Shown here: positions 28,912-60,971 of the stretch, piece after piece
How positions within the stretch are numbered: position 1 is the first letter of the stretch
Layout of the letters: each line of letters opens with the position of its first letter
The notes under the pieces: model-generated
Databases searched by the model: none
Seen by the model: only the letters and a program-made list of their open reading frames with translations
What the model was told of the DNA's origin: nothing
Made by a program: the position numbers and the translations under genes
Source: Starkeya sp. ORNL1
GTDB taxonomy: Bacteria; Pseudomonadota; Alphaproteobacteria; Rhizobiales; Xanthobacteraceae
Assembly: GCF_012971745.1 (NCBI RefSeq)
Contig: NZ_CP048834.1
Location: forward strand, 2,232,001-2,296,000
Direction of reading: 5' to 3'
DNA: 64,000 bases

Positions 28912-28989
28912 CAGTACAGACCACGGTCAGCGAGTCAAGGCGTGGGTGATTACCGGTCCGCGAGCGTGTCGCGGAACAGTCAGAGAGCG

Positions 28990-29070
28990 TCATGGCCGGG
29001 CTCGTCTCGGCCATCCACGGTTGGGCTGAGATCGAGGACATGGATGCCCGGGACAAGCCCGGGCATGACA
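28990..29070. repeat. Repeat family B-like composite
   Basis: GTCATGGCCGGGCTCGTCTC, CCATCCACGGTT and ATGCCCGGGACAAGCCCGGGCATGAC. The same three words in the same order occur at 57766-57847 with small differences. Confidence 0.7.
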
Positions 29071-43284: not shown

Positions 43285-43324
43285 CGAGAGATGGCCGCGG
43301 GGGCGCCTGGAACCGTCGCGCCCC

Positions 43325-46396: not shown

Positions 46397-46602
46397 AGCC
46401 CTCGGTCCCCACGCCACGCCCACGCAAAAACGCGTTACCGCGCATTGGGTTCCGCTGCGCGTACCAGAACAGGGCCGAGCCATTGCTGGATCGAAATGGC
46501 CGTGGCGGGCGTTCCCGCCGCTGCATTACGGTATCATTGAGCCATCGCGGCCGCGTGCCTATCATCCCCGCCGACTACCGGTTGCGACAAAGGACAATTC
46601 CG

Positions 46603-46815
46603 ATGAACGACACTGTGGCCACGCCGCCCGCCGAGCCGATGCCGACGCATCCGGAGGAGATGAAAGCCGTCTACGATCTTCGTGTCGGCAAGCTGATCAC
46701 GCTGCAGGGCAGCGCCCGCATGACGCCGGCCGGCCTGGTGACCGCCGGCATCGCCGCGTCGGCGATCCTCCTCGCCGTCAGCGTGCTGGTAAGGGCGACG
46801 CGCGGGGCACGGTAA
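46603..46815 (+). CDS. Small single-pass membrane protein
   Basis: A 70-residue protein starting MNDTVATPPAEPMP after AAGGA. The N-terminal 45 residues are polar; one hydrophobic helix (GLVTAGIAASAILLAVSVLV) ends in a basic tail RATRGAR. No family recognised. Divergent from the hybrid kinase and convergent with the aldo/keto reductase, whose stop lies four bases away. Confidence 0.6.
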   Translation: MNDTVATPPAEPMPTHPEEMKAVYDLRVGKLITLQGSARMTPAGLVTAGIAASAILLAVSVLVRATRGAR

Positions 46816-46819
46816 AGGA

Positions 46820-47899
46820 TCAGGCCGCCTCTCCCGCCTTTGCCGGCGGGTTGAGTACGCCGCGGGCGAGCTCGGGCGGCGCGCCGATATAGGGCACGCG
46901 GCCTTCCATCGAGTGGCCGGGGTCGGAATAGCCGAAGGTCGAGGTCTGTCCCGGCGCCACCAGGCTATTGACCATCGCCTCATCCTCGGGGGTGAAGACG
47001 TAGTCGAGCGCGCGGACATAGTCGTCCCACTGCTCCTCGGTGCGCGGCCCGGCTATGGCGGCGGTGATCAGCCGGTTGTTCAGCACCCAGCCCACCGCGA
47101 AGGCGCTCGGCGCGATGCCGCGCTGTTGCAGATGCTGCTTGATGTGCCGCGCGATGCGCAGCGATTCCGGCCGGAACTCGGTCTCCATCAGCCGCTTGTC
47201 GCCGCGGCCGGCGCGGCTGTCGGCAGCGGGCGGCGCGTCCGGATCGTATTTCGCGGTCAGCACGCCGCGCGCCAGCGGGCTGTAGGAGACGACGCCGAGA
47301 CCGTAAAAAGCGGCGCCCGGAAGCTGTTCGCTCTCGGCAGTGCGGTCGACCAGATTATACAGCGGCTGGCTGGCGACCGGCCGATCGATATTGAGCTGGT
47401 CGGCAAGGTGGGCGACCTCGGCGATGCGCCAGGCGCGGAAGTTCGATACCGCGAAATAGCGCACTTTGCCCTGGCGGATCAGATCGGCGAGCGCGCGGAC
47501 AGTCTCGCCGAGCGGCTGGTCATAGGTGGCGCGGTGCACATAGAGGATGTCGATATAGTCGGTATCGAGCCGCCTGAGGCTGTGCTCCACCGCCTCGAAG
47601 ATATATTTGCGCGAGGCGCCGGTCTGGTTGATGCCCTTGGCATTGCCGACGGCATTGGTGAACTTGGTGGCGATGGTATAGCGGTCGCGATTGCCCTTCA
47701 CCGCGCGCCCGATCACCTCTTCCGAGCGGCCGGCATTGTAGGTGTCGGCGGTGTCGAGAAAGTTGAAACCCTGCTCATAGGCCTTGTGGATGATGCGATG
47801 CGAGGTCGGCTCGTCGGTCTGGCCGCCGAACATCATGGTGCCCAGAGCGAGCTTGGGAACCTTCAGGGCGCTGCGGCCGAGATAGCGATACTCAGGCAT
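46820..47899 (-). CDS. Aldo/keto reductase
   Basis: A 359-residue (beta/alpha)8 AKR of the AKR11/YajO-like group. It has MPEYRYLGRSALKVPKLALG, catalytic Asp/Tyr in FLDTADTYNAGRSEEVIG, Lys in YTIATKFTN, His in DILYVHRAT, FAVSNF and GVVSYSPLARGVLT. It reduces small aldehydes or ketones with NADPH. Stand-alone gene with an insertion (DPDAPPAADSRAGRGDKR) in the loop before the cofactor segment. Confidence 0.9.
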   Translation of the reverse strand: MPEYRYLGRSALKVPKLALGTMMFGGQTDEPTSHRIIHKAYEQGFNFLDTADTYNAGRSEEVIGRAVKGNRDRYTIATKFTNAVGNAKGINQTGASRKYIFEAVEHSLRRLDTDYIDILYVHRATYDQPLGETVRALADLIRQGKVRYFAVSNFRAWRIAEVAHLADQLNIDRPVASQPLYNLVDRTAESEQLPGAAFYGLGVVSYSPLARGVLTAKYDPDAPPAADSRAGRGDKRLMETEFRPESLRIARHIKQHLQQRGIAPSAFAVGWVLNNRLITAAIAGPRTEEQWDDYVRALDYVFTPEDEAMVNSLVAPGQTSTFGYSDPGHSMEGRVPYIGAPPELARGVLNPPAKAGEAA

Positions 47900-48049
47900 G
47901 GGTCATCCTCTTGCAGGCAAAATGCGCGGAGCGGGAGTAAAGGCCCTCCCGCCGCGACACGCCAGAGCGCTCGCGCATTGTTGTCCGCTCAGACGGATGA
48001 TGCTGAGCCGGCTGCGGATGAAGCCAACCGAAGCGTCCCACCTCCGCCT

Positions 48050-48137
48050 CCTCATCCCCGGGCTTGACCCGGGGATCCAGACTTCTACCGAGCACATGCG
48101 GGATGGCTGGATCCCCGGGTCAAGCCCGGGGATGAGG
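48050..48137. repeat. Large inverted repeat, family B
   Basis: CCTCATCCCCGGGCTTGACC...GGATCCAG and CTGGATCCCCGGGTCAAG...GGGGATGAGG around a 26-base spacer. It shares its arms with 6204-6293. It lies just beyond the end of the AtuA/DUF4387 operon and may end its transcription. Confidence 0.8.
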
Positions 48138-48178
48138 GCATCTTGGAGTTTTCGGTCGGGCGTTCAGCCCAACCCTAA

Positions 48179-48490
48179 TCAGCCTGGTACCTGCAGCTCG
48201 ACCAGAGGCGCGTGCTGTTGGCCGCCATAGGCGTCGCCGTCATCGAGGTCGCACTGCACATAGGGCCTGGGGATCGAGATCTTGATCGCCTTCGCCGCGT
48301 CGTGATGGAAGAAGATCACCTCACCCTCATCGACCTGATAAAGCTTGGCGAACACCGCTTTGGTGAGGACGCCGGCATCGATGACGCGGCGGTAGCTCGC
48401 CTCGTCCTCGAACATCACGTCGAAGGTCAGCATATAGGGCCCGGCATTCTTCGAGCGGATCAGCCGTGCCATCTCGCCAAGGGTCGCCAT
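48179..48490 (-). CDS. DUF4387-family small protein (copy 2)
   Basis: A 103-residue protein. The family start LGEMARLIRSKNAGPYMLTF is followed by VMFEDEASYRRVIDAGVLTK, VIFFHHDAAKAIKISIPRP and the Asp/Gly-rich DLDDGDAYGGQQHAPL. It is paralogous to the protein at 55012-55317 over its whole length. Its ATG overlaps the stop of the preceding AtuA-family gene, so the two are coupled and probably form a complex. DUF4387 proteins are regularly found beside DUF1446/AtuA proteins; their biochemical role is not established to my knowledge. Confidence 0.85.
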   Translation of the reverse strand: MATLGEMARLIRSKNAGPYMLTFDVMFEDEASYRRVIDAGVLTKAVFAKLYQVDEGEVIFFHHDAAKAIKISIPRPYVQCDLDDGDAYGGQQHAPLVELQVPG

Positions 48491-49866
48491 CACCCGACCT
48501 CCATATATTCGTGGCGGAACATCGCGCGCGGCTCGCGCGGCGCCACGATGTGGTTGAGATTGAAGCGATAGACCGGTCCGCGGTCGGTCTCCGCCGGCGT
48601 CATCGGGAACGCGAGGCCGCTGATCAGGCCGCGCCATTCCGGGATCGGATAATGCAGCGCAAAATGCGCGAAGGTCTTGGCGAGCGCCATGGTGACGCTG
48701 CGCTCCGGCGAGATGATCGTGAACAGCACGCCGACCTCGTGGCCGACCTGGCCGGCCAGCGGCTCCAGCTTGCCCATCACGCCGTCGCGGCCATAGACCC
48801 GCATGCGGATGGAATAGTCGTCGGGCCCGACGCGGCCCTGGAACATCTCCTGCACCCGCGCGGCGAAGCGCTCGCACATGCCGGCGAACCAGCTGTCGAT
48901 CTGGCGGATGATGTAGGGCTCGCGGATGCCGGCCATGATCGCCGCCTGGTAGCCGGCAAGCTCGGCGCCCTCCAGCTTGAAGGTCGGCCGCTCGCTCGGC
49001 AGGAAGCGCGAGCGGGTGACACGCACCGCGCGGTCGTTCAAGGCCTCGTATTCGCAGCCCGACGTATCCAGCGTGCCGCCCGGCTCGGTGATGAGGAACG
49101 GGTCGGCATTCTCGTAGAGCGAGTGCGAGGCAACGCTCTGCGGCGTGCAGCGCGCCTCGGGGTCGAGCGGCTCGATATCGAAATGATCGTCGCGCACCCA
49201 GGCGAAGATGCTGTCCGGCCGCTTGCGCTGCACCGTGGAGGCGGTGCCGCATTCGAGGATCTTGGCGGCGTGCCAGGCTGAGCCGGGGTCGGCATTGCGC
49301 ATCAGCGGCACCGCCGCGAACAGCGCGGTGTCGGAGGCGCGTCCGGTGAGGATGACGTCGGCCCCCGCCTCGATCGCCTGCACGATCGGCTCGTGCCCCA
49401 TCATGGCGACGATGTGCGAGCTGCGCTCGATGATCGCCTCGCTGATCTCCGGCGCCGGATTGAGCGGGGTGATGCGACCCTCGCGCAGCTCCTGCTTGAG
49501 GAAGCCCTTGTCCTGCTCGCTGCGCACCAGGCCGAGATTGAAGCTCAGTCCCTCCTCGCGGGCGATCTCCAGCGCGATGTCGCGCATCCAGGCGACGCCG
49601 GCGTCGCCGCCCGCCATGCCGCATGAGCCGACGATGAGCGGGACCTTGAGCGTGTCCCTGCCCTGCAGCATCAGCTTGAGGTCGCGCTTGGTGCCTTCGC
49701 GGGAGAAATGCGGCTCGCCGGTGCCGAGATGATACGGCCCGGCATCGCTGGAGCCGCCGTCGCAGGCTATGACGTCGGGCTTCAAGGAAATCCCCTTGGC
49801 GAAGGAGGATTCCATGAAGCCGGACCCGATCTGGCCGGATGCCGACAGTACCCGTACCTCTCCCAT
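48490..49866 (-). CDS. Acyclic terpene utilisation AtuA-family (DUF1446) protein (copy 2)
   Basis: A 458-residue protein. It starts MGEVRVLSASGQIGSGFMES and contains IACDGGSSDAGPYHLGTGEP, VPLIVGSCGMAGGDAGVAW, ADVILTGRASDTALFAAVPL, WHAAKILECGT, EARCTPQSVASHSLYENADP and DRGPVYRFNLNHIVAP. This is the DUF1446 domain known from AtuA of citronellol/geraniol degradation, but the acyl-CoA carboxylase genes that accompany atuA are absent. Its close paralogue is at 55356-56750. It follows the D-2-hydroxyacid dehydrogenase gene by nine bases. The reaction is unknown; a hydrolytic or lyase step on a small carboxylic acid is a guess. Confidence 0.88.
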   Translation of the reverse strand: MGEVRVLSASGQIGSGFMESSFAKGISLKPDVIACDGGSSDAGPYHLGTGEPHFSREGTKRDLKLMLQGRDTLKVPLIVGSCGMAGGDAGVAWMRDIALEIAREEGLSFNLGLVRSEQDKGFLKQELREGRITPLNPAPEISEAIIERSSHIVAMMGHEPIVQAIEAGADVILTGRASDTALFAAVPLMRNADPGSAWHAAKILECGTASTVQRKRPDSIFAWVRDDHFDIEPLDPEARCTPQSVASHSLYENADPFLITEPGGTLDTSGCEYEALNDRAVRVTRSRFLPSERPTFKLEGAELAGYQAAIMAGIREPYIIRQIDSWFAGMCERFAARVQEMFQGRVGPDDYSIRMRVYGRDGVMGKLEPLAGQVGHEVGVLFTIISPERSVTMALAKTFAHFALHYPIPEWRGLISGLAFPMTPAETDRGPVYRFNLNHIVAPREPRAMFRHEYMEVG

Positions 49867-49875
49867 GGCGTCACC

Positions 49876-50847
49876 TCATGTTCTGATTTTGCCGTCCGGA
49901 CCGAGCACTCGGATCGGGCGCCCGGCCAGGAATGCCTGGATGTTCTCGACGGTCTCGCCGTAATAGAGCTCGTAATTCTCGCGGATCACGTAGCCGATGT
50001 GCGGCGTTGCCAGCACGTTCGGCAGATGGCGATAGGGGTGGTCGCGCGGCAGCGGCTCGTCATTATAGACATCGAGCCCGGCACCACCGATGCGCCCGGC
50101 GCGCAGCGCCGCGATCATCGCGTCCTCGTCGATCAGCGGCATGCGCGAGGTGTTGATGAGGAAGGCGCTCTTCTTCATGCGCGCGATCTCCGGCGCGCCG
50201 ACCACGCCGACCGAGCGCTCGCTCTCCGGCATGTGGATGGTGATCGCGTCGGAGCGCGCGAAGAGCTCTTCCTTGCTCACAGCCTCGACGCCGTGCGGGC
50301 CGGCGCGGTGCTGGGTGAGGTTGGGGCTCCAGGCGATCAGCTTCATGCCGAAGGCCTGGCCGACTTGCGCCACCGGAATGCCCATGGTGCCGAGCCCGAG
50401 AATGCCGAGCGTCTTGCCGCGTACCGCGGAGCCGAGTTGCACCTGCCAGCCGCCATTGCGGACCGAGGCGACCTCGTGATGGATGCCGCGGAACAGCGAG
50501 AGGATCATCGCCCAGGTCACTTCCACCGTCGGGAAGGAATGGGAGGTGGTGCTGCACACGGTGATGCCGAGATCGGCGGCCGCGGGCAGATCGATCGAGC
50601 GATCGTTGCGCAGCCCGGTCGCCAGCAGCAGCTTCAGCCGCGGCAGCCGCTCCAGCACGCGGCGCGGGAACAGGGTGCGCTCGCGCACCCGGCCGACCGC
50701 GTCGAAATCGGCGAGCCGGGCGACGAGCCGGTCCTCGTCCTTCTCGTGGTCGGCGAATGCCACCACCTGGCATTCCGGCGGGAGATTGCCCCACGGGGCG
50801 CAGGACAGGGCGACGTTCTGGTAATCGTCGAGCAACGCAATGCGCAT
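49876..50847 (-). CDS. D-2-hydroxyacid dehydrogenase (PGDH/glyoxylate reductase family)
   Basis: A 323-residue NAD-dependent dehydrogenase. It has the flanking catalytic domain MRIALLDDYQNVALSCAPWG, Rossmann motif GILGLGTMGIPVAQ, catalytic Arg in LINTSRMPLID, Glu in YNDEPLP and His in ATPHIGYV. It interconverts a D-2-hydroxy acid and its 2-keto acid. Sitting between the ABC importer and the second AtuA/DUF4387 pair in the same operon, it suggests a hydroxy- or keto-acid intermediate in the pathway. Confidence 0.9.
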   Translation of the reverse strand: MRIALLDDYQNVALSCAPWGNLPPECQVVAFADHEKDEDRLVARLADFDAVGRVRERTLFPRRVLERLPRLKLLLATGLRNDRSIDLPAAADLGITVCSTTSHSFPTVEVTWAMILSLFRGIHHEVASVRNGGWQVQLGSAVRGKTLGILGLGTMGIPVAQVGQAFGMKLIAWSPNLTQHRAGPHGVEAVSKEELFARSDAITIHMPESERSVGVVGAPEIARMKKSAFLINTSRMPLIDEDAMIAALRAGRIGGAGLDVYNDEPLPRDHPYRHLPNVLATPHIGYVIRENYELYYGETVENIQAFLAGRPIRVLGPDGKIRT

Positions 50848-50856
50848 GGATGAATC

Positions 50857-51990
50857 CTAAGCGGCGGCTAGGCCGGGAGAAGGAACAGGGTCGCGGCGGG
50901 CCTCGCTCGCCGGGAAGACCACCGAGCCGGCGGTCGGGACATGCAGCCAGAGCTGGGCCTGGTCATAGTCGGCCGGGGATTCGACCTTCACCACCACGCC
51001 GCCCACAGTGAGCTGGTATTGCCAGCGCCCGCCTATGTAGCTGCGCGTTGTGACGCTGGCGGGCAGCACCACGCCCTCCTCGCCGGGTGCATGGTCGGGG
51101 GAGGTGGTAAGTTCCAGCTTCTCCGGGCGGATCGCCACCGTCACCCGCGCGCCGGGCGCGAGATCGCGCGGCAGCACGGTGCGCATCTCGGCGCCGCCGT
51201 CGAGCCGCACCAAGGCGGTGCGCGCCGCATCCGCGGCGACGACCGCTCCGGAAAAGAAATTGCTGGTGCCGATAAAGTCGGCGACGAACGGATCGGCCGG
51301 GTGCTCGTAGATTTCGCGCGGCGTACCGAGCTGGACGATGCGCCCGCCATTCATCACCGCGATACGGTCGGAAAGCGCCAGCGCCTCGATCTGGTCGTGG
51401 GTGACATAGAGCGTGGTGAGCCGCACCTTCTGGTGCAGGTGATCGAGCCAGGTCCGCGCCCGCTCGCGCAGCTTGGCGTCGAGATTGGAGAGCGGCTCGT
51501 CGAGCAGCAGCACCAGCGGCTGATAGACCAGCGTGCGGGCCAGCGCGACACGCTGCTGCTGGCCGCCGGAGAGCTGGTGCGGGTAGCGGTCGGCATAGTC
51601 CGCCATCTCCACCAGCGCCAGGGCTTCGGCGATGCGCGCGCTCCGCTCCTTGGAGCGGATCTTCCGGAGCTTCAGCGGGAAGGCGAGGTTCTGCTGCACC
51701 GTCATGTGCGGCCAGAGCGCGTAGGACTGGAACACCAGCCCGCAATTGCGCGCTTCCGCCGGCAGCACCTGGCCCTTCGCGCTGTCGAAGAACACCCGGT
51801 CGCCGGCGCGGATCAGCCCCTGGTCCGGCACATCGAGCCCGGCCACCGCGGCGAGCGTGGTCGATTTCCCGCAACCGCTCGGGCCGAGCAGCGTGAGGAA
51901 TTCGCCGTCGGCAATGTGGAAGCTGACATTGTCGACCGCGGTGACGAGGCCGAAGCGCTTGGTGAGGTTCTGGACGACGAGCTCAACCAT
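50857..51990 (-). CDS. ABC transporter ATP-binding protein (Fe3+/polyamine type)
   Basis: A 377-residue importer ATPase. Walker A is GPSGCGKSTTLAAVAG, Q-loop VFQSYALWPHM, signature LSGGQQQRVALART, Walker B VLLLDEPLSNLDA and H-loop VTHDQIEA, followed by a TOBE-type C-terminus from about residue 240. Its start overlaps the end of the permease gene by eight bases. Together with the permease and the binding protein it forms a complete transporter within the AtuA operon. It is a paralogue of the ATPase at 2025-3176. Confidence 0.93.
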   Translation of the reverse strand: MVELVVQNLTKRFGLVTAVDNVSFHIADGEFLTLLGPSGCGKSTTLAAVAGLDVPDQGLIRAGDRVFFDSAKGQVLPAEARNCGLVFQSYALWPHMTVQQNLAFPLKLRKIRSKERSARIAEALALVEMADYADRYPHQLSGGQQQRVALARTLVYQPLVLLLDEPLSNLDAKLRERARTWLDHLHQKVRLTTLYVTHDQIEALALSDRIAVMNGGRIVQLGTPREIYEHPADPFVADFIGTSNFFSGAVVAADAARTALVRLDGGAEMRTVLPRDLAPGARVTVAIRPEKLELTTSPDHAPGEEGVVLPASVTTRSYIGGRWQYQLTVGGVVVKVESPADYDQAQLWLHVPTAGSVVFPASEARRDPVPSPGLAAA

Positions 51991-53725
51991 AGATCTTGAC
52001 CCCGAATGCGCGGCGCATGGCGGCGATGAAGACGACGGTGAAGATGATCTGCACGAAGGACAGCGCCGCGACTCGTCCCATCTCGCCCTGCACCCAGAAC
52101 TGGATCAGTGCGGTGCCGATGACTTCCGTTCCCGGCGCGAACAGGAACAGCGCCGTGGAGTATTCCTTGAAGAAATAGACAAAGAGCAAAGTGAAGCAGG
52201 TGAACAGCGCCGGCGTCATCAGCTTGAGGATGACGACGCGCACCGAGGTCCACCAGTCGGCACCCATGACGCGGGCGCTGCGGTCGAGGTCCGGGCCGAT
52301 CTGCATCAGCGAGGGCGAGAGCGCGCCGAAACCGGTGGGGATGTAGCGCATCGTGTAGGCGATCACGAGGATCCACAGCGTGTTGCGCATCCAGCCCAGC
52401 GGCGGCAGGAACACTGCGGCATAGAAGAAGCCGATGCCGGCAATCAGCCCCGGCAGCGCCCGCGGGAACAGCGCGAGATATTCGAGCTGGCGGCGCAGCC
52501 GGAAGTCCGAGCGGTGTACGATGAGCGAGATCAGCGCGACGAAGCAGGTCGCGAGCGCCGCCCCGCCGATGCTGACGATGATGGTGTTCACAATGGCGCG
52601 GCGCGTGATCTCCAGCGAGAACACCTCTTCGAAATGCTCCGGGGTCAGCAGTTCCCAGAACGGGATCATAGGCGTGAGGAAGTTCACGCAGGCCCTGAGT
52701 CCCAGCACGCCGATCGGGAAGATGATGAACAGCAGCACATAGCTGCCGACCAGCGCGAAAGCGACCCAGCGCAGCTTGCCGAGCTTGAACGGGCGCGGGC
52801 GGGTCGCCTTGCCGCCGACGGTGACGAAGCGCCGCGAGTTGCGCAGCATGCGGCCCTGCAGGAACACCAGCAGCATGACGATGACCAGCAGCAGCACTGC
52901 CGCCGTGCCCACCAGTCCGTAATTCGGTTTCGGCGTGGATAGCCCCTGCGTGAACAGGAAGGTGGTGAAGAAGCTGATGCCGGCCGGCTCGCCGAAGATC
53001 AGCGGGATGGAGAGCATCTCCAGCGCCGCGGTGAAGTTCAGCACGCCGCCATAGAGGATGGAAGGCAGCAGCAGCGGCAAGGTGATCGACCACAGCGTGC
53101 GCAGCGGCTTCGCCCCGCAGGAGCGCGCGGCATCCTCCAGCGAGGGATCGGCCAGCGCCGAGGAGCCGAGGCAATAAAGCAGCGCCAGCGGCACCTGCGA
53201 GATGCCGGCGATGATCGACATGCCGGTGAGCGAATAGAGCGTCCACGGGTCGGCGCCGAGGAAGCTCTTCACGAACAGCGTCACGAACCCGGCCGAGCCA
53301 TAGGCGAGGAACCAGCCGAAGGCGAGCACGAGGTGGGAGATGAAGAGCGGCCATAGCAGCATGCTGCCGAAGAAGCCGCGGCACGGCAGGTCGGTGCGCC
53401 CGATCAGCACCGCGAAGAACGCGCCGAGCGTCTGCGCGATCAGCGTGGTGATGGAAGCGAAGACGAAGGAGTTGAACAGCACCTTGCGGAGCTGCTCGCT
53501 GGCGAACAGGTCCTTGTAGTTCTGCAGCGTCAGGATCTGGCCGCGGTCATAGAGCGGCCGGTCGATGAAGGACTGGTAGATGATCGGCAGGACCGGCGCC
53601 ACCACCAGCACGAGGGTGACGAGGAACACCGACCAGTAGATCACCGTCGAGCGGGTGATCTGCCTGGGATTGGTGATGTAGCCCGGCAAGGCGCCGGGCG
53701 GCGCGAAATCCTGGACGATGGCCAT
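51983..53725 (-). CDS. ABC transporter permease, two fused permease domains
   Basis: A 580-residue inner-membrane protein with two permease halves and two EAA loops: ARSCGAKPLRTLWSITLPL at about residue 205 and SARVMGADWWTSVRVVILKL at about 490. Each half has about six helices; the central linker contains RKFVT-like basic residues (RNSRRFVTVGGKATRPRPF). It is almost the same length and design as the permease at 289-2028 (579 residues), so the window carries two paralogous transporters of this kind. Confidence 0.92.
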   Translation of the reverse strand: MAIVQDFAPPGALPGYITNPRQITRSTVIYWSVFLVTLVLVVAPVLPIIYQSFIDRPLYDRGQILTLQNYKDLFASEQLRKVLFNSFVFASITTLIAQTLGAFFAVLIGRTDLPCRGFFGSMLLWPLFISHLVLAFGWFLAYGSAGFVTLFVKSFLGADPWTLYSLTGMSIIAGISQVPLALLYCLGSSALADPSLEDAARSCGAKPLRTLWSITLPLLLPSILYGGVLNFTAALEMLSIPLIFGEPAGISFFTTFLFTQGLSTPKPNYGLVGTAAVLLLVIVMLLVFLQGRMLRNSRRFVTVGGKATRPRPFKLGKLRWVAFALVGSYVLLFIIFPIGVLGLRACVNFLTPMIPFWELLTPEHFEEVFSLEITRRAIVNTIIVSIGGAALATCFVALISLIVHRSDFRLRRQLEYLALFPRALPGLIAGIGFFYAAVFLPPLGWMRNTLWILVIAYTMRYIPTGFGALSPSLMQIGPDLDRSARVMGADWWTSVRVVILKLMTPALFTCFTLLFVYFFKEYSTALFLFAPGTEVIGTALIQFWVQGEMGRVAALSFVQIIFTVVFIAAMRRAFGVKIYG

Positions 53726-53790
53726 GGGCAGCGACGACGATCCCGATCGTGAGGACTGGTCCCGCGCCGGGCATCCGGCATGGGCGGTCG

Positions 53791-53820
53791 GGGCCGGCGC
53801 GTGCGGAGCCGCGCCGGCCC
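53791..53820 (-). other. GC-rich hairpin between binding-protein and permease genes
   Basis: GGGCCGGCGCG and CGCGCCGGCCC form an 11-bp perfect stem with an 8-base loop in the 105-base gap after the binding-protein stop. There is no T-run, so an mRNA-stability or attenuation element is more likely than a true terminator, as at 24135 and 20391. Confidence 0.5.
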
Positions 53821-53830
53821 GGGTCGTCGC

Positions 53831-54955
53831 CTAAAGCTTGTAGGCCTGCATCCAGCGCTTCAGGAAGGCGTCGTGGTCGGTGATCATGTCCGGGTTATAG
53901 TTGACCGGGATCACGTTCTTCTCGCCGATCGCCTTGATGACGGTCTGATAGGTGTAGGCGCCGTCGACCTCCTCCGGCGAGACGTCGAGCCGGTAGGGCG
54001 TGCGCCCGCCCTTGGCCATGCCGATCTGGCCTTGATGCGAGATCATCACGTCGAGCCAGAGCTTGGCGGCGTTCGGGCTATTGGAGGATTTCGGGATAGC
54101 CGAGCCGCGCATCATCACCGGCGTGCCGTCGGAGATGAAGCTCCAGCCGAGCACCTTGGCACGCTGCGCGTTGCGGACCGCAAGCCACGGATTGCCCGAG
54201 CCGGTGAGGTAGCCGAACACGTACTCTCCAGTCAGCGTCTTCTCGACCATGGGCCCGGAGGAACGCTCCACCCGCGTCATCGGCCCCACGGTGTCGAGCC
54301 ACTCCCAGCCCTTCTCGCCATGATGCTTGATGAAGGAATAGGCCGAGGTATAGCCAAACGAGCCGAACTGGGCGCCGTAGCAGCTCATCTTGCCCTTGAA
54401 GATCGCCGGGTTGGCCTTGCACTTCTCGGCAAGGTCCTGGAAGCCCTTGGGCACCATGTTCTCCGGCAGCAGCATCTTGTTCCAGATGAACAGCATCGGA
54501 TCGATGGCGATGGTGTAGAGCCCGGGATAAGGCAGGCTCCAGGCCGGCACATAGGGGATTTCCGGGGACTTGTAGTCGACCAGCTCGTTGCGCTGGACGG
54601 CGTTGATCCAGGAATCCGGCGCCACGGTCGCGAGCAGGTCGGCGGTCTTGCTGCCGGTGCCGCGCTCGGCGAGGAAGCGCTCGATGACCTCGCTGCTTTC
54701 CAGGTCGAGCGTCTGCACGTCCATCCAGGGATAGAGCGCCTTGTAGCGCGCCATCACCCCGGCCCACATGTCCACCGACATGTTCGAATAGATCAGCAGG
54801 TTCTTCTCGGCCTTCGAGCCCTCGATGATCTTGCCGTAATCCTGCGGGTAATAATCCGGGAGCTTGGCCGCCGCGGCCTGGCCGAATGCGGCGGATCCGG
54901 TCGACGCGAGCAGGCCGAGGCCGCCGGCGCCGATCATGAATTGGCGTCTATCCAT
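53831..54955 (-). CDS. Extracellular solute-binding protein, family 1/6 type, with Tat-like signal
   Basis: A 374-residue periplasmic binding protein. MDRRQFMIGAGGLGLLASTG is a twin-arginine-type signal, cleaved near AFGQA. The mature part contains NLLIYSNMSVDMWAGVMARY, VIERFLAERGTG, and the C-terminal VIPVNYNPDMI, resembling iron(III)/polyamine/phosphonate binding proteins. It delivers substrate to the fused permease downstream. Ligand unknown; the operon suggests a small organic acid or an organic-acid metal chelate. Confidence 0.9.
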   Translation of the reverse strand: MDRRQFMIGAGGLGLLASTGSAAFGQAAAAKLPDYYPQDYGKIIEGSKAEKNLLIYSNMSVDMWAGVMARYKALYPWMDVQTLDLESSEVIERFLAERGTGSKTADLLATVAPDSWINAVQRNELVDYKSPEIPYVPAWSLPYPGLYTIAIDPMLFIWNKMLLPENMVPKGFQDLAEKCKANPAIFKGKMSCYGAQFGSFGYTSAYSFIKHHGEKGWEWLDTVGPMTRVERSSGPMVEKTLTGEYVFGYLTGSGNPWLAVRNAQRAKVLGWSFISDGTPVMMRGSAIPKSSNSPNAAKLWLDVMISHQGQIGMAKGGRTPYRLDVSPEEVDGAYTYQTVIKAIGEKNVIPVNYNPDMITDHDAFLKRWMQAYKL

Positions 54956-55011
54956 CGTTTCCTCCTAAGCAGGCGGCGCTCTTTTTTGGCGCTCGCCCGA
55001 ACCCGTTCAGT

Positions 55012-55317
55012 TCAGATGTCGATCTCCATCAGTGGTGCGTATTGCTGCCCCCCGTGACTGTCGGCATCACCCAAATCGCCCTGGGTCGCCGGTCGCGGGA
55101 TGGAGGCTTTGACGGCAAGTGCGTTGTCGACGAAGAAGAACTGCACGTTGTTCTCGGACAGGCCGTAGATTCCGGCCACGGTCTTCGCCGAAATCTTCCC
55201 GGAATCCTTCACTCTTTTGTAGGTTTCGGGATTGTCGAACATGATGTCGATGGTCAGGCTGAACGGCCCGGCGTTCTTGCTGCGGATCAGGCTGGCGAGA
55301 TCGGCAAGCTTGGTCAT
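55012..55317 (-). CDS. DUF4387-family small protein (copy 1)
   Basis: A 101-residue protein. LADLASLIRSKNAGPFSLTI opens the domain, then IMFDNPETYKRVKDSGKISA, VQFFFVDNALAVKASIPRP and ATQGDLGDADSHGGQQYAPL. It lines up along its length with the protein at 48179-48490, with the RSKNAGP, SIPRP and GGQQ-AP blocks identical. It lies 38 bases after the first AtuA-family gene and 56 before the binding-protein gene. Confidence 0.87.
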   Translation of the reverse strand: MTKLADLASLIRSKNAGPFSLTIDIMFDNPETYKRVKDSGKISAKTVAGIYGLSENNVQFFFVDNALAVKASIPRPATQGDLGDADSHGGQQYAPLMEIDI

Positions 55318-55355
55318 GGAAACCCCAATTCAAATCGCTCAATTTCACCCGATAC

Positions 55356-56750
55356 TCAATTCACCTGAACATGCTCGATGTTGAACATCTCGAGCGGATC
55401 ATCGACTTCGACGACGTGATTGACGTTGAAGCGATAGACCGGCCCGCGATCGAGATAGGCCGGGCTGAAGGGGCAGGCGATGCCGGTGATCAGCCCGCTC
55501 CACTCCGGGATCGGCAAATGCAGCGCCTGGTGCCGCGTGACCGAGGCGATGGCGCTGGCGATGTCCTGCGTCGGCGCGGTGACGAGGAACAGCAGGCAGA
55601 TCTCGTGCGGCGTCGCGTCCTTGATCGGCTCCAGATCGCCCATGGTGCCGTTCTTGCCGTAGACATGGACGTTCAGCGTGATGGCATTGTCGCTGACCGT
55701 GTTGCCATAGAGTTCCTTGATGCGGCCGCGCACCTTCTCGTCGAGCCGCCGCAGCCAGTCGTCGATCTGGCGGATGATGAAGGGATCGCGCACCGAGCCC
55801 AGCACCAGCGACTGGTAGCCGACGAGTTCGGCGCCCTCCAGCTTGACCGTATAGGTGTCGGCGTGCCGGAAGGCGCTGCCGCGCACCCGCACCGAGCGAT
55901 CATCGACCGCCTCATACTGGGCGTCGCGCAGATCGATGGTGCCGGACGACTCGATGATCAGATAGGGATCGGTGTTCTCATAGAGGCTGTGCGCGGCGAT
56001 GCTCTGCGGCGTGCAGCGCAATTCCGGATCGAGCGGCTCGATGACGAAGCTGTCATGGCTGATCGAGGCCATGATGCAATCCGGGTTCTTGCGGAAGGTG
56101 GCCGCCGCCGCACCGCATTCGAGGATCTTGGCGGCGTGCCAGGACAGCCCCTCGGGAAAGCCGAAACTCGTCGGCAGCCCGGCGAAGATGGCGGTGTCGC
56201 TGGAGCGCCCCGCCAGCACCACCTGGGCGCCGCCCTCGATCGCCGCGAGGATAGGTTCGGCGCCCATCATGCCGACGATGCGTTCGCTGCGCTCGATGGT
56301 GTTCTCGTCGAATTCGGGTGCGGGATGCAGCGCGCGGATCTTGCCGTCGCGCAGCTTGGCCTTGAGATAGGCCTTGTCCTGCTCGGCATGGATCAGCGCA
56401 GCGGGGAAGCTCAGCCCCTCCTCCACCGCAATCTCCTGCAGGATCGTATAGACCGACTGCAGATGCGGCTCGCCGCCGGCGGTGCCGCACGAGCCGATGA
56501 TCAGCGGGATGCCGGCGCGCTGCGCGCCGAGCACCATGAGGCGCAGATCACGCTTGATGGCGCGGGCGGGAAACGACGGCTTGCCGGAGCCGAGCGGCGC
56601 CGGTCCCGGATCGGTGGAGCCGGCATCGGAGGCGATGAAATGCGGGTCGCGTTTCAGCCCGTTTTCGAAGGAGCTCTCGAGGAAACCGGAGCCCAGGACG
56701 CCGGTGGCGGAAAGCACGCGGATTTCCCCGTTGGGAACCTTCTTGAGCAT
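55356..56750 (-). CDS. Acyclic terpene utilisation AtuA-family (DUF1446) protein (copy 1)
   Basis: A 464-residue protein and first gene of the operon. Blocks match copy 2: EIRVLSATGVLGSGFLESSF, IASDAGSTDPGPAPLGSGKP, IPLIIGSCGTAGGEP, AQVVLAGRSSDTAIFAGLPT, WHAAKILECGA, ELRCTPQSIAAHSLYENTDP and DRGPVYRFNVNHVVEV. I start at the ATG at 56750, preceded by GGGAG, because the 25 extra codons to 56825 run into the operator region and lack similarity to copy 2. Divergence between the copies suggests different substrates or stereoisomers rather than dosage. Confidence 0.88.
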   Translation of the reverse strand: MLKKVPNGEIRVLSATGVLGSGFLESSFENGLKRDPHFIASDAGSTDPGPAPLGSGKPSFPARAIKRDLRLMVLGAQRAGIPLIIGSCGTAGGEPHLQSVYTILQEIAVEEGLSFPAALIHAEQDKAYLKAKLRDGKIRALHPAPEFDENTIERSERIVGMMGAEPILAAIEGGAQVVLAGRSSDTAIFAGLPTSFGFPEGLSWHAAKILECGAAAATFRKNPDCIMASISHDSFVIEPLDPELRCTPQSIAAHSLYENTDPYLIIESSGTIDLRDAQYEAVDDRSVRVRGSAFRHADTYTVKLEGAELVGYQSLVLGSVRDPFIIRQIDDWLRRLDEKVRGRIKELYGNTVSDNAITLNVHVYGKNGTMGDLEPIKDATPHEICLLFLVTAPTQDIASAIASVTRHQALHLPIPEWSGLITGIACPFSPAYLDRGPVYRFNVNHVVEVDDPLEMFNIEHVQVN

Positions 56751-56814
56751 CTTCCACTCCCTCAATCCGTGGCTTTTTGTCACGGCATTTTTCCCATATT
56801 CGGAGAGCGGCAGA

Positions 56815-56885
56815 AAAAGAGTCAACTCTTTTCTCGGAAACCGGCATATTATCTACGCTGCACCTGCGAAAGAGTTGACACTATC
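56815..56885. promoter_or_regulatory. Operator-like inverted repeats between the AtuA operon and its GntR regulator
   Basis: AAAAGAGTCAACTCTTTT (56815-56832) is a perfect 18-bp inverted repeat with a 2-base centre. A second, half-conserved copy GAAAGAGTTGACACTATC is at 56868-56885. The 11-mer GTCAACTCTTT also pairs with AAAGAGTTGAC across 37 bases. The position between divergent starts at 56750 and 56937 fits a dimeric GntR repressor controlling both directions. Confidence 0.7.
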
Positions 56886-56936
56886 GGGAAGTTCGGGAAC
56901 AGAGGCCGCCAGGCGCACTCATCTTGCGTGGGATAG

Positions 56937-57617
56937 ATGACCCTAGGTAATGATCAGCTCGAATTGAGTGAAGCGGTGCCGTCGGTAGAGGACGACACGC
57001 TGTCATCCGTGGCGATGGCCAAGATCATCGGCCTGATCCGCGGCGGGGAATTGCTTCCGGGCGACATCGTCAACGAGACCGACCTGGCGAAGCAATTCGG
57101 CATCAGCCGCGGCCCGGTGCGCGAGGCGGTGCGCCAGCTCCAGGGCCGCAAGCTGATCACGCGCGAGCCCTACCAGCGGGCGCGGGTGGTGAGGCTGGAT
57201 TTCGCACAGATCCGCGAGATCTATGAGCTGCGCGAGTGCCTGGAGGGCATGGCCTGCCGGCTCGCCACGCTGAAGATGAGCGACGCCGCGCTCGCCGAGC
57301 TCATGGCCGCCGTCGAACTCGCGAAGGGCCCCGACAATTACTCGCTGGTCGACACGGATTACCCGTTCAATTTCCACGAAGCCATCGTCAATGCTTGCGG
57401 CAACAGCAAGATCCGGCAGTCGCTGAGCGGCGAGCTTTATGACCTGATCCGTCTGTATCGCTGGAGCACGCACATCCGCGTGCCGGAGGGCAGAGCGCAT
57501 TCGCGCGACCACTGGCAGATCTGCCGCGCCATGCAGGCCCGCGACGCCGACCTCGCGGAGTCGCTGATGCGCGGCCACATAAGGCGGGTGGCGGCGCTGA
57601 TCGAGAATACCGGGTGA
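56937..57617 (+). CDS. GntR-family regulator with FCD domain
   Basis: A 226-residue regulator. The winged helix is at about 25-90 (IVNETDLAKQFGISRGPVRE, then AVRQLQGRKLITREPYQRAR) and the FCD domain at about 95-220 (IREIYELRECLEGMACRLA, FNFHEAIV, SRDHWQI, MRGHIRRV). It is divergent from the AtuA operon and is its most likely ligand-responsive repressor, acting at the adjacent inverted repeats. The three FCD-GntR regulators in the window differ in sequence and recognise visibly different candidate sites. Confidence 0.92.
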   Translation: MTLGNDQLELSEAVPSVEDDTLSSVAMAKIIGLIRGGELLPGDIVNETDLAKQFGISRGPVREAVRQLQGRKLITREPYQRARVVRLDFAQIREIYELRECLEGMACRLATLKMSDAALAELMAAVELAKGPDNYSLVDTDYPFNFHEAIVNACGNSKIRQSLSGELYDLIRLYRWSTHIRVPEGRAHSRDHWQICRAMQARDADLAESLMRGHIRRVAALIENTG

Positions 57618-57623
57618 ACCTGA

Positions 57624-57738
57624 CTCCCCTCTCCCCGTCGGGGAGAGGTGGCCCGCGTAGCGGGTCGGTGAGGGGGAGCACGGCTGGGGAGCAAGCAGGC
57701 CCCTCACCCCACCCCTCTCCCCGACGGGGAGAGGGAGA
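57624..57738. repeat. Palindromic repeat family C
   Basis: CCTCTCCCCGTCGGGGAGAG, GGCCCGCGTAGCGGGTCGGTG and a second CTCTCCCCGACGGGGAGAGG. Same composite as 15601-15714, in the opposite orientation. Confidence 0.8.
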
Positions 57739-57765
57739 AGTCCTGGTCAGTTGGCTCATTTCCGT

Positions 57766-57847
57766 CGTCATGGCCGGGCTTGTCCCAGCCATCCACGGTT
57801 GCTCGCTCGTCCCGGACGTGGATCCCCGGGACAAGCCCCGGGATGAC
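57766..57847. repeat. Repeat family B-like composite
   Basis: GTCATGGCCGGGCTTGTCCC, CCATCCACGGTT and GGATCCCCGGGACAAGCCCC GGGATGAC (written in two parts) repeat the order seen at 28990-29070. Confidence 0.7.
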
Positions 57848-57876
57848 GGTGCGATGGGTGAACTACAGGCCCGCCC

Positions 57877-59361
57877 TCACGTCCGGATATAGACCATCTG
57901 CGTCTCGGTGAACTCGTAGAGGCCGTGCTTGCCGTCGGCGCCGCCGATGCCGGACTTGCGGCGCCCGGCATGGAAGCCCTGCATCGCCTCGAAGTGCTCG
58001 CGGTTGATGTAGGTCTCGCCGAACTTCAATTCGCGGCTGGCCTTGATCGCCGAGTTCAGGTTCGAGGTGAAGATCGAGGAGGTCAGCCCGTAGTCGGAAT
58101 CATTGGAGAGGGCGATCGCCTCGTCGAGGTCCTTCACCTTCTGGATCGGCAGCACCGGACCAAAGGTTTCGCGTCGCATGATGTCCATGTCGGCGCGGGC
58201 GCCGGTGATCAGCGTCGGCTGGTAGTGGAAGCCCGACGCACGATCGGCGATGGCGCCGCCGGTGACGATGGTAGCGCCCTCCGCCTTGGCCCGCTCCACC
58301 GCGGCCGCCACCTTGTCGAGGCCGGCCTTGTTGACCAGCGGGCCCATATGCAGGTCCGCTTCCTTGGACGGATCGCCGTAACGGGTCGCCTCGAACAGCG
58401 GCTTCAGGCGGGCGACGAGGGCGTCATGCACGCTCTCTTCGACATAGACGCGCTCGGCGCAATTGCAGACCTGCCCGGTATTGATGACCCGGGAATCGTA
58501 GATCGCCTTCGCCGCCAGATCGAGATCGGCATCGGCCAGCACGATCGCCGGCGCCTTGCCGCCAAGCTCCAGATTGACGCGGGTGAGGTTGCGCCCTGCC
58601 GCCTGCATGATGTGCGAGCCGGTGGCGACGCTGCCAGTGAAGGAGATGAGGTCGATGCCGGGATTGGTCACCAACGCTTCGCCGGCAGTCGTGCCGCGCC
58701 CGCCGATCAGGTTGAACACGCCGGCCGGCAGGTCGGTCTCGGCCACCAGCTGGGCGAAGGCGAAGGCGTTGATCGGCGTCTCCTCGCTCGGCTTGATGAC
58801 GATGGTGTTGCCGGTGATCAGCGCCGGCGCCAGCTTGCGGGCGATCAGGAAGAACGGGAAGTTCCACGGCAGGATGCCGGCAACGACGCCGATCGGCTTG
58901 CGCAGCAGGAGGATGGTCTCGTCGGCGCGGTCGCTGCTCAGCACCTCGCCTTCGAGTCGGCGCGCCCATTCGGCCATGTAGTCGATATAGTCGGCGGTGA
59001 AATCGACTTCGATCTGCGCCAGCGAGGCGATCTTGCCCTGCTCGCGCACCAGGATCTCGGCGAGGTCGCGGCGATGCTCGCGCACCTTGGCGGAGATGGC
59101 GCGCAGATGCGTCGCCCGCTCGATCGCCGGCAGCTTCTCCCATGCCGGCTGGGCGCGCCGCGCGGCCTTCACCGCGCTTGCCACGGTGTCGGCGTCGCTG
59201 TTCGGGATCAGGCCGAGCAGCGTGCCGTCCGCCGGATTGGTGACCTCGATGGTCGCGCCGCTGGAAGCGACGAAGTTGCCGTCGATGAAGTTCTGGTAAT
59301 TCGACGGCGTGGCGGTGAGCGCGACTGAAGTATCCCGGCCGATCGTCTCGTGTTTCGTCAT
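57877..59361 (-). CDS. Aldehyde dehydrogenase (lactaldehyde/glycolaldehyde dehydrogenase AldA-like)
   Basis: A 494-residue NAD-dependent aldehyde dehydrogenase. It has GVVAGILPWNFPFFLIARK, cofactor loop FTGSVATGSHIM, catalytic Glu in LELGGKAPAIV and Cys in TGQVCNCAERVYVE, and ETFGPVLPIQKV. The NCAERVYV context and QGFHAGRRKSGIGGADGKHG resemble AldA. It likely oxidises lactaldehyde, glycolaldehyde or a C3/C4 semialdehyde from the pathway encoded upstream. Last gene of the minus-strand unit beginning at 62773. Confidence 0.92.
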   Translation of the reverse strand: MTKHETIGRDTSVALTATPSNYQNFIDGNFVASSGATIEVTNPADGTLLGLIPNSDADTVASAVKAARRAQPAWEKLPAIERATHLRAISAKVREHRRDLAEILVREQGKIASLAQIEVDFTADYIDYMAEWARRLEGEVLSSDRADETILLLRKPIGVVAGILPWNFPFFLIARKLAPALITGNTIVIKPSEETPINAFAFAQLVAETDLPAGVFNLIGGRGTTAGEALVTNPGIDLISFTGSVATGSHIMQAAGRNLTRVNLELGGKAPAIVLADADLDLAAKAIYDSRVINTGQVCNCAERVYVEESVHDALVARLKPLFEATRYGDPSKEADLHMGPLVNKAGLDKVAAAVERAKAEGATIVTGGAIADRASGFHYQPTLITGARADMDIMRRETFGPVLPIQKVKDLDEAIALSNDSDYGLTSSIFTSNLNSAIKASRELKFGETYINREHFEAMQGFHAGRRKSGIGGADGKHGLYEFTETQMVYIRT

Positions 59362-59400
59362 GATGCTTCCTCCATGGAGATGGCGTTCTCCGTCAGATCT

Positions 59401-60192
59401 TCAGGCCGATATGCCGGCGCGATGGCGGCCCAGCCAGCCGAGCCCGGCTTCGGTATTGCCGGCCGGCACGTATTCGCAGCCGATGAAGCCGGTGAATCCG
59501 GTCTCCTCAAGAGCCGCATAGAGCGCATCGAAATCGATGGTGCCGGTGCCCGGCTCGTGGCGGCCGGGGTGATCGGCGATGTGCATGTGGTGGATCAGCC
59601 CGGCATGGGCGCGCACGAAGGGCACGGGGTCTTCGCCGGCATTGGTGGCGTGGAAGGCGTCGAAGATCAGCCGGACATTGTCGCGCCCCAGCGCCTCGAC
59701 GGCGCGCACGCCGAGCGCGGAATCGTCCATGAAATAATTCGGCAGCGAGCCGGGGCCGATCGGCTCGATCAGGATGCGCATGCCGCGCGAGGCCGCCGCG
59801 TCCGCCGCCATCGCCATGTTCTCCAGATAGGTGTCCCAGAGGCGATCGTGATCGACGCCGTCGGGGCGCACTCCGGCCATGGCGTGCACCGCCTTGCAGC
59901 CGATCGCCTCGGCATAATCGAGCCCCTTGCCGACGCTCTCGCGGAACGTGTCGACGCGATCCGGCAATGCGGCGAAGCCCTTCTCGCCGCGTGCCGCATC
60001 ACCCGAGGCCAGCCCCATCTGCACGAAGGTGAGCCCGGTTTCCCTGAGCTGCCGCGCCACCTCGGCCGGGGGCGCCGCATAGGGTGCGGGGTGCTCGACG
60101 GCAGCGAAGCCGCCCCGCCGGGCCGCGGCGAAGCGCTCCAGCAGCGGGATCTCGGAGAATAGATAGCCGATATGGGCGCTGTACTTCCTCAA
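59401..60192 (-). CDS. Hydroxypyruvate-isomerase-like TIM barrel (Hyi/OtnI family)
   Basis: A 263-residue xylose-isomerase-like barrel. It has GYLFSEIPLLERFAAARRGGF (first 20: GYLFSEIPLLERFAAARRGG), VEHPAPY, metal Glu in ILIEPIGPGSLPNYF, LIFDAFHA, HHMHIADHPGRHEPGTG and the family-typical ending FIGCEYVPAGNTEAGLGWL. Members isomerise hydroxypyruvate to tartronate semialdehyde or act as 2-oxo-tetronate isomerase. Next to a racemase-fold protein and an aldehyde dehydrogenase, it fits a C3/C4 sugar-acid route. Confidence 0.9.
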   Translation of the reverse strand: MRKYSAHIGYLFSEIPLLERFAAARRGGFAAVEHPAPYAAPPAEVARQLRETGLTFVQMGLASGDAARGEKGFAALPDRVDTFRESVGKGLDYAEAIGCKAVHAMAGVRPDGVDHDRLWDTYLENMAMAADAAASRGMRILIEPIGPGSLPNYFMDDSALGVRAVEALGRDNVRLIFDAFHATNAGEDPVPFVRAHAGLIHHMHIADHPGRHEPGTGTIDFDALYAALEETGFTGFIGCEYVPAGNTEAGLGWLGRHRAGISA

Positions 60193-60245
60193 CGGGGGCC
60201 TCTGCTTGTCTTGTCGCCGGCGATGTCGTGCGGGGCTGCGATGTT

Positions 60246-60938
60246 TCAGGGATAGACCATGGCCGACAGGACGGGCACGACGCCCGTCACCATCTCGCGC
60301 ATGCGCACGACCGCCGCGTCGGGCGAGGTCAGCACCGGCGCGGCGATGCGGGCACGCACCCGCTCCGCTGCGCGCGAGGTGGAGAAATGCGCCAGCATCA
60401 CCGCGTCCATGTGGCCGAGTTGCGAGGCATATTCGGAGACCAGGCGGTTATGGGTGTCGGCGTCGCCCTTGCGCAGCCGGTCCATGGCGTCGGGCACCAG
60501 CACGGTGGTTAGGGTGGCGGAAGGGCGCAGCCGCGCGGCAGCTTCCACGAACTCGTCCTCCATCGTGACAACGGCGGGCGCGAAGGTGGCGAGCATGCCG
60601 ATCCGCTCGCCATGGGACAGCGCTTGCGCGAACATCGCCTCGTTCGGCTTCAGCACCGGGATCGGCAGTTCGGCGGCGGCACGCTCGATCGCCGGGCCGA
60701 AGGCCGAGCAGGTGACGAGCAGGCCGTCGGCACCGATGCGGTGGCCATAATGGGCGAGCGCGACGAAGCGATCGATCATCTCCTCGGTCAGATCGGGGGT
60801 GCGGGCCCGATCCGGCGAGAGCGCGTCGTCGAGCAGATTGGCGAGATCGGCCTCCGGCCAGCCGCGCGCGAACGCTTCGTGGATCGGATCGATCGCCACC
60901 GGGGTGGCATGCAGCAGGACGATGCGCGGGGCTTTCAT
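60246..60938 (-). CDS. Asp/Glu-racemase-fold protein
   Basis: A 230-residue protein of the Asp/Glu/hydantoin racemase superfamily. IVLLHATPVAIDPIHEAF opens it; the first catalytic position is present in DGLLVTCSAFGPAIE. The second expected Cys, in the strand MDAVMLAHFSTSRA, is replaced, so a two-base racemisation mechanism is doubtful. Single-Cys members such as arylmalonate decarboxylase show that non-racemase reactions occur on this fold. It lies between the sugar permeases and the Hyi-like gene. Confidence 0.82.
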   Translation of the reverse strand: MKAPRIVLLHATPVAIDPIHEAFARGWPEADLANLLDDALSPDRARTPDLTEEMIDRFVALAHYGHRIGADGLLVTCSAFGPAIERAAAELPIPVLKPNEAMFAQALSHGERIGMLATFAPAVVTMEDEFVEAAARLRPSATLTTVLVPDAMDRLRKGDADTHNRLVSEYASQLGHMDAVMLAHFSTSRAAERVRARIAAPVLTSPDAAVVRMREMVTGVVPVLSAMVYP

Positions 60939-60971
60939 CGCAATAGCTCCGGATGTGGGAAAGGCATCGTC

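Follow-up and report, generated by a model that had tools for sequence, protein, structure and literature searches.

Organization of the operon

A 64,000-nucleotide stretch of the Starkeya sp. ORNL1 genome (NZ_CP048834.1, positions 2,232,001 to 2,296,000; hereafter the window) carries eight minus-strand open reading frames (ORFs), from 48179 to 56750, that likely form one operon. They encode two AtuA/DUF4387 pairs, pair 1 (AtuA_1 and DUF4387_1) and pair 2 (AtuA_2 and DUF4387_2), together with an ATP-binding cassette (ABC) importer and a D-2-hydroxyacid dehydrogenase (Table 1). The comparisons described below indicate that the operon probably serves the uptake and coenzyme A (CoA)-independent cleavage of a hydroxycarboxylate, each pair acting as a lyase.

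All eight ORFs were open and their products matched Pfam families above the curated cut-offs, so that the eight-gene operon with two AtuA/DUF4387 pairs described in an initial annotation of this DNA stands, as does its divergent GntR regulator. The intergenic distances, from AtuA_1 down to DUF4387_2, were 38, 56, 105, -8, 9, 9 and -1 bases; 186 bases separate the operon from the GntR gene and 279 from the next minus-strand gene, which encodes an aldo/keto reductase. A search of the whole genome (a single contig of 6,286,188 bases) gave three AtuA matches, two of them within one gene and all in AtuA_1 and AtuA_2, and neither AtuA nor DUF4387 was found in the genome beyond these four genes. No NCBIfam model matched any of the four subunits at an expectation value (E) <= 0.01. 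The parts of the operon are ordinary and their combination is unusual: two non-redundant lyase pairs of the CmlAB type, a rare MctA-like importer and a local regulator.

Table 1. Genes and operator-like sites at the locus (positions in the window)
Feature	Position	Strand	Basis
GntR/FCD regulator, probable local regulator of the operon	56937..57617	+	Pfam GntR and FCD
Operator-like site 2	56869..56884	.	2 mismatches to AAAGAGTYRACTCTTT; 53 bases from site 1
Operator-like palindrome 1 (AAAGAGTCAACTCTTT)	56816..56831	.	0 mismatches to AAAGAGTYRACTCTTT
AtuA_1, large subunit of predicted lyase pair 1	55356..56750	-	PF07287, 65.3 bits (cut-off 22.8), scored on 55356-56825, the ORF with an upstream TTG start
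DUF4387_1, small subunit of predicted lyase pair 1	55012..55317	-	PF14330, 121.1 bits (cut-off 27)
Periplasmic solute-binding protein	53831..54955	-	SBP_bac_8 and SBP_bac_1
Fused two-domain ABC permease	51983..53725	-	Two BPD_transp_1 stretches
ABC importer ATPase	50857..51990	-	ABC_tran and TOBE_2
D-2-hydroxyacid dehydrogenase	49876..50847	-	2-Hacid_dh and 2-Hacid_dh_C
AtuA_2, large subunit of predicted lyase pair 2	48490..49866	-	PF07287, 70.3 bits (cut-off 22.8)
DUF4387_2, small subunit of predicted lyase pair 2	48179..48490	-	PF14330, 113.8 bits (cut-off 27)
Aldo/keto reductase, possible ninth member of the unit	46820..47899	-	PF00248; adjoins the operon in L004 too (87%)

Relationship of the AtuA/DUF4387 pairs to citramalate lyase

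Both large subunits are full-length relatives of CmlA (PDB 9erq, chain A), with E values of 1e-108 for AtuA_1 and 1e-95 for AtuA_2 and identities of 43% and 37%, and the small subunits matched CmlB (9erq, chain B) at E 2.4e-21 (DUF4387_1) and 4.4e-19 (DUF4387_2). In the structures 9erq and 9evf an AtuA chain is paired with a DUF4387 chain, under the names citramalate lyase subunits A and B. The predicted model of AtuA_1 matched 9evf ('citramalate lyase - ADP - pyruvate complex') with a template modelling (TM) score of 0.87, a fold match that covers AtuA_1 alone. The window AtuA proteins are 51% identical to each other and the DUF4387 proteins 50%. DUF4387 adjoins AtuA in both pairs and in 25 of 25 relatives (loci L005-L029), and the 37 columns invariant over 29 AtuA sequences are kept in the window proteins. 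Since both pairs are full-length relatives of the solved CmlA/CmlB, the earlier suggestion that each pair is a two-subunit enzyme is well supported. We regard the lyase class as highly probable for both pairs. By analogy, they would be likely to break a C-C bond at the tertiary alcohol of a beta-hydroxy acid, and a di- or tricarboxylate with a tertiary beta-hydroxy group is the probable substrate.

CmlA is 94% identical to the AtuA protein of a Salmonella plasmid, where glmS, glmL, glmE and a methylaspartate ammonia-lyase gene precede AtuA and DUF4387 and a class I fumarase gene lies a few genes on; a Prevotella record holds a similar cluster. The two-gene architecture is the same as in both window pairs, but on the Salmonella plasmid the pair stands alone within a glutamate-fermentation cluster, whereas the window has two pairs with an importer. 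The adenine nucleotide is known here only from the title of 9evf (ADP), and nucleotide use by the window pairs is putative. The paper on the enterobacterial cluster gives the DUF1446 protein no function, states that the citramalate made there still needs splitting and suggests citrate lyase first (PMC4682846). A further pair, on CmlA's side of the AtuA tree described below, was seen on the Klebsiella plasmid NZ_CP055107.1 (301.8 kb, typed as conjugative; locus L047) with aldehyde dehydrogenases and a fumarate hydratase; of the 48 plasmid records in which AtuA matched, 12 are Klebsiella, and L047 was the one of these that was read.

The AtuA protein of acyclic terpene utilization has its Pfam family name and reported reaction type in common with the window pairs. 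One paper ascribes to it acetate release by cleavage next to a tertiary alcohol (PMC4847356), whereas another assigns this step to LiuE instead (PMC4097962); there is thus no agreement in print on its role in that pathway. In the Atu pathway atuA is accompanied by genes for geranyl-CoA carboxylase, a hydratase and CoA-synthase; none of these, and no terpene-pathway carboxylase or CoA ligase, was among the 16 window genes scanned (43718-62773; the search for them was confined to this range), which agrees with the local absence of carboxylase and ligase reported initially. The 'AtuA-like lyase' ThnQ/ThnS of anaerobic naphthalene degradation is described, in a paper citing unpublished results, as the product of two genes that cleaves at a tertiary hydroxylated carbon (PMC12016498). 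It differs from the window pairs in its CoA-thioester substrate and hydrocarbon pathway; the likeness is one of description, not of compared sequences. Retro-aldol type cleavage of a beta-hydroxy acid may, in our own synthesis, be the chemistry common to CmlA, AtuA and ThnQ/ThnS.

Genomic neighbourhoods of AtuA_1 and AtuA_2 relatives

At least 4038 relatives of AtuA_1 and at least 3001 of AtuA_2 (the latter at E <= 1e-20) were scored, the two sets overlapping. The named genome scan with AtuA_1 comprised 26 loci. L004 holds both pairs; at L005-L029 the stretch fetched, cut short by a contig end in several cases, shows a single AtuA with DUF4387 after it. A tripartite-tricarboxylate-type binding protein matched somewhere in the stretch at 24 of these 25 loci; such proteins are abundant in betaproteobacteria, and the link is therefore weak. 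A homologous PrpD-family gene lay within 4 kb in 9 of the 24 loci searched (58-80% identical to that of L013, itself included); the L013 gene was assigned by Pfam and the other eight by homology to it. Several metagenome-assembled records (L008, L012, L024, L026 and L029) are labelled Chitinophaga pinensis or Bordetella parapertussis and carry betaproteobacterial-like genes; these labels may be wrong.

AtuA_2 relatives were 70-94% identical among the 120 matches listed. Those in genomes G036, G081 and G1146 have an NMT1-type binding protein in common (71-77%). An Ldh_2 dehydrogenase is common to G1146 and G036 (76%), and a gluconolactonase-like gene, some 4-6 kb away, to G081 and G1146 (80%); a relative of the latter gene (about 60%) lies directly upstream of AtuA in L018. 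At another locus (L057 in G145, 8.6-17.9 kb) an AtuA/DUF4387 pair stands by an FAD_binding_2 gene, an aldehyde-dehydrogenase match and a GntR gene, along with a D-2-hydroxyacid dehydrogenase 56% identical to that of the window and a PrpF-family gene whose best NCBIfam match, under the cut-off, was 4-oxalomesaconate tautomerase.

Within the genus, both AtuA genes were found in 2 of 30 genomes, own included (G000 and G1159). The other genome has the same arrangement (L004, a contig of G1159) with about 90% DNA identity. The matches cover 48179-57613 and 46820-48021 and are otherwise short, for example 186 bases at 43324-43509; the shared stretch 46820-57613 fits transfer as one unit without proving it. 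G1146 has the AtuA_2 pair only in its whole genome, and the other 27 of the 30 genomes gave no match (E <= 1e-60).

Importer loci and the CoA route

The binding protein is related in sequence to the metal-citrate-binding protein MctA (E 5.5e-27), and MctA, solved with Mg2+-citrate or citrate, was also the closest fold to its predicted model (TM 0.79-0.82; predicted local distance difference test, pLDDT, 93). It had 52 relatives at E <= 1e-20, far fewer than the AtuA proteins in the same kind of search. The best NCBIfam matches were PhnU2 for the permease (141.7 bits, far below the cut-off of 593.25) and PhnT2 for the ATPase (346.9 bits, below the cut-off of 457.7). A dedicated importer and a carboxylate substrate, both proposed initially, are supported. 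A paralogous importer, its permease 34% identical, lies elsewhere in the same genome (L089, C1:2838000-2855000) near a PrpF-like gene (56% identical to that of L057), an Ldh_2-like gene (40%) and a TctA-like gene (62%); this is a probable further organic-acid cluster.

We examined 26 loci with importer homologues, the window and L004 included. AtuA/DUF4387 was present at six of them: the window, L004, Microvirga (L068), Martelella (L069), G613 (L076) and G075 (L058, with a remote importer). A CoA transferase was present at 8 of the 26. The order importer, CoA transferase, CoA-ester lyase, hydroxyacid dehydrogenase and RraA was seen in Ensifer (two strains), Aureimonas, Shinella, Pararhizobium and G1038; the G617 locus has the CoA transferase, the G530 locus CoA transferase and lyase, and the G359 locus a lyase-like gene only (1/26). 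Of seven genome-drawn loci of the importer clade, three carried a CoA transferase and one AtuA. Among solved proteins, human CLYBL-type PDB entries are nearest to the Shinella CoA-ester lyase (best 5vxc, 'Citrate lyase subunit beta-like protein, mitochondrial'), CLYBL being a citramalyl-CoA lyase; the best NCBIfam match of the Shinella enzyme was RipC, an itaconate-pathway lyase (134.7 bits, below the cut-off of 375). For the Shinella CoA transferase the best match was succinate-hydroxymethylglutarate CoA-transferase, with a CaiB/BaiF protein almost level.

In these CoA-type sister operons the three-gene importer is homologous to that of the window and the hydroxyacid dehydrogenase belongs to the same Pfam families, but cleavage would proceed by a CoA route in place of AtuA/DUF4387. 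Regulators are IclR-type at the sister operons and GntR at the AtuA-linked ones. The gene order suggests that AtuA/DUF4387 pairs can replace the CoA route. The window dehydrogenase has a GLGTMG motif at residue 151; the combination of importer, 2-hydroxyacid dehydrogenase and AtuA/DUF4387 recurs with dehydrogenases of unrelated Pfam families, suggesting that the dehydrogenase step belongs to the pathway.

Importer relatives bear iron-transport annotations, and the binding protein comes closest in fold to a metal-citrate-binding protein; this would also fit an operon mainly for acquisition of a metal (iron or magnesium) through metal-hydroxycarboxylate chelates, the lyases only destroying the ligand to free the metal. 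The iron-transport labels are inherited, however, and in the sister operons IclR-type regulators go with catabolic genes for a CoA transferase, a CoA-ester lyase, a dehydrogenase and an aldolase, while the AtuA-linked operons have GntR regulators. We consider a metal-acquisition role very unlikely.

Regulator and operator-like sites

The GntR/FCD protein is 84% identical in L004, and its best NCBIfam match was phnR_burk (TIGR03338, 101.5 bits, below the cut-off of 271.5). The pattern AAAGAGTYRACTCTTT with up to 3 mismatches occurred at two sites in the window, where chance predicts 0.12; none of 100 shuffled sequences had as many. Genome-wide there was one further place, with 3 mismatches, whereas a reversed control pattern gave 10 places; it is therefore the closeness of the two best sites in the gap between the GntR and AtuA genes that speaks, not their number. 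In L004 one base is changed in each site, and much of the gap towards GntR is changed. The GntR/FCD protein is the probable local regulator of the operon, with putative binding at these two palindromes.

Proposed pathway and alternatives

We think it fairly likely that the operon is regulated and that it serves to take up a small tertiary beta-hydroxy carboxylate of the citramalate/citrate class and to cleave it independently of CoA. The GntR/FCD protein would, judging from the sequence, bind the two palindromes in the divergent gap and release them with substrate or product. The fold of the binding protein suggests that the importer would take the acid in, possibly as a metal chelate. Each pair would then act as a heteromeric nucleotide-binding lyase, a reaction type transferred from the solved relative, and break the bond from the tertiary carbinol carbon to the carboxylate-bearing carbon, yielding a 2-oxo acid such as pyruvate and acetate or a substituted acetate. 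The dehydrogenase may act ahead of this cleavage or following it, turning a 2-hydroxy acid into a 2-oxo acid or the reverse. The catabolic route for a small carboxylate put forward in the initial annotation is thus retained as to carboxylate and uptake and sharpened to a lyase on a tertiary beta-hydroxy acid; that it is self-contained is not supported: the operon holds nothing for acetate and a single dehydrogenase that could handle the 2-oxo or 2-hydroxy acid.

The following points weigh against the proposal. Although MctA shares fold and homology with the window binding protein, the positions named in the titles of MctA mutants, which from those titles would be ligand contacts, are not kept: in one sequence alignment none of the six is identical and two are conservative (S26 to N58, D28 to S60, S79 to V111, S164 to G198, T199 to S233 and Y221 to W257). 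The ligand is therefore probably related to that of MctA but not the same. Dehydrogenases of this family are widespread: at E <= 1e-90 they occur in 48 of 337 genomes of the class, with the genome of the window counted, and the window enzyme is 30% identical to that of the CoA-type operons. Neither CoA transferase/lyase nor AtuA was found in the stretch fetched at 11 of the 26 importer loci (L065, L070, L074, L075, L087, L088, L089, L091, L093, L094 and L095; L074 has a weak CoA-transferase match, 31%, about 5 kb off). L068 and L069 were chosen partly because AtuA was known on the same plasmids, and from the permease tree one cannot tell whether the AtuA link arose once or several times.

The phylogeny counts on the same side. 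A 29-row AtuA tree set the CmlA side, 10 rows (CmlA, Salmonella, Prevotella, Klebsiella, Halomarina and five same-family genomes), apart from 19 rows holding both window proteins with a split of 100/100; the program flagged several long branches and three rows of odd composition. We know of no characterized member on the 19-row side. Columns were compared between three groups: AtuA_1 (120 sequences) and AtuA_2 (121), each with its top listed relatives, and the CmlA group (7). All three share 70 conserved columns, and at 18 columns (one a gap) the two window groups agree with each other while the CmlA group is invariant for a different state. Because both window AtuA proteins fall in a clade sister to CmlA and differ from it in these columns, the substrate is not fixed and citramalate itself is not established; we regard it as an unlikely substrate.

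The two pairs could be plain citramalate lyases for R and S citramalate, both giving pyruvate and acetate, with the dehydrogenase making D-lactate from pyruvate or running backwards. CmlA/CmlB is the closest solved relative of both pairs, the family-wide invariant residues are kept and the Shinella sister operon holds a citramalyl-CoA-lyase-like enzyme. However, both AtuA proteins lie outside the CmlA clade with 18 group-specific differences, and their relatives have other partners: PrpD-family genes and tripartite-tricarboxylate-type binding proteins for AtuA_1, and an NMT1-type ABC importer, Ldh_2 and a gluconolactonase-like gene for AtuA_2. We doubt this arrangement and hold it to be improbable. 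The two pairs stem from different clades with different native partners and not from a recent duplication. The initial idea of stereoisomers loses force, as such pairs fit two different substrates at least as well. With pairs from two different AtuA clades, two different but related substrates are the most likely case, for which we judge the chances to be about even.

Five columns tell the AtuA_1 group from the AtuA_2 group, among them residue 96, which is H in the AtuA_1 and CmlA groups and G in the AtuA_2 group. The missing H96 would agree with one pair having no lyase activity or being a regulatory or assembly partner of the other, but AtuA_2 has its many close relatives, and 3 of 3 genomes (G036, G081 and G1146) have an AtuA_2 relative with its own DUF4387 and no AtuA_1-type gene beside it, so that such a role is hardly credible. 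The same difference at residue 96 (H versus G), the separate clades and the occurrence of both pairs in one operon in both genus genomes that hold both AtuA genes would fit pairs acting in series on one two-armed substrate, a citrate-like or lactone-derived polyhydroxy acid, with each pair taking off a two-carbon acid or a substituted one. Against this, 25 of the 26 loci of the named scan have a single AtuA in the stretch fetched, and G1146 has the AtuA_2 pair alone. Since each pair is found alone in relatives, neither needs the other, and action in series seems distinctly unlikely.

Flanking regions

Membership of the aldo/keto reductase gene in the unit is opposed by its 279-base distance and by an inverted repeat in between. 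Repetitive extragenic palindromic (REP)-like inverted repeats of the CCCCGGGCTTGACCCGGGGATCCA type flank the operon in opposite orientation (48050-48137 and 57760-57853) and recur elsewhere in the window (28988-29069) and in L004. Beyond the GntR gene lies a second minus-strand set (57877-62773) encoding an aldehyde dehydrogenase, a xylose-isomerase-like TIM (triosephosphate isomerase) barrel, a member of the Asp/Glu racemase family and two ABC permeases.

Implications

AtuA/DUF4387 proteins are widespread (at least 4038 and at least 3001 relatives) and are still named after a domain of unknown function or the terpene pathway. With a solved lyase, a reaction class and a transporter now linked to them, many unassigned carbon-uptake operons become open to direct tests. 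We tentatively suggest, with somewhat more doubt than confidence, that the pairs are exchangeable CoA-free modules that replace CoA transferase III and a CitE/CLYBL-type lyase behind a common class of hydroxycarboxylate importer, plausibly with a nucleotide instead of CoA for carboxylate activation; that the sister clade of the window AtuA proteins holds new lyase specificities; and that the window operon and L004 are the sole combination of two such specificities among the loci examined. With two non-redundant pairs in one operon, specificity can be tested by single-gene removal in one host. If the exchange with the CoA route is true, it would represent a second biochemical solution for splitting citramalate- and citrate-like acids.

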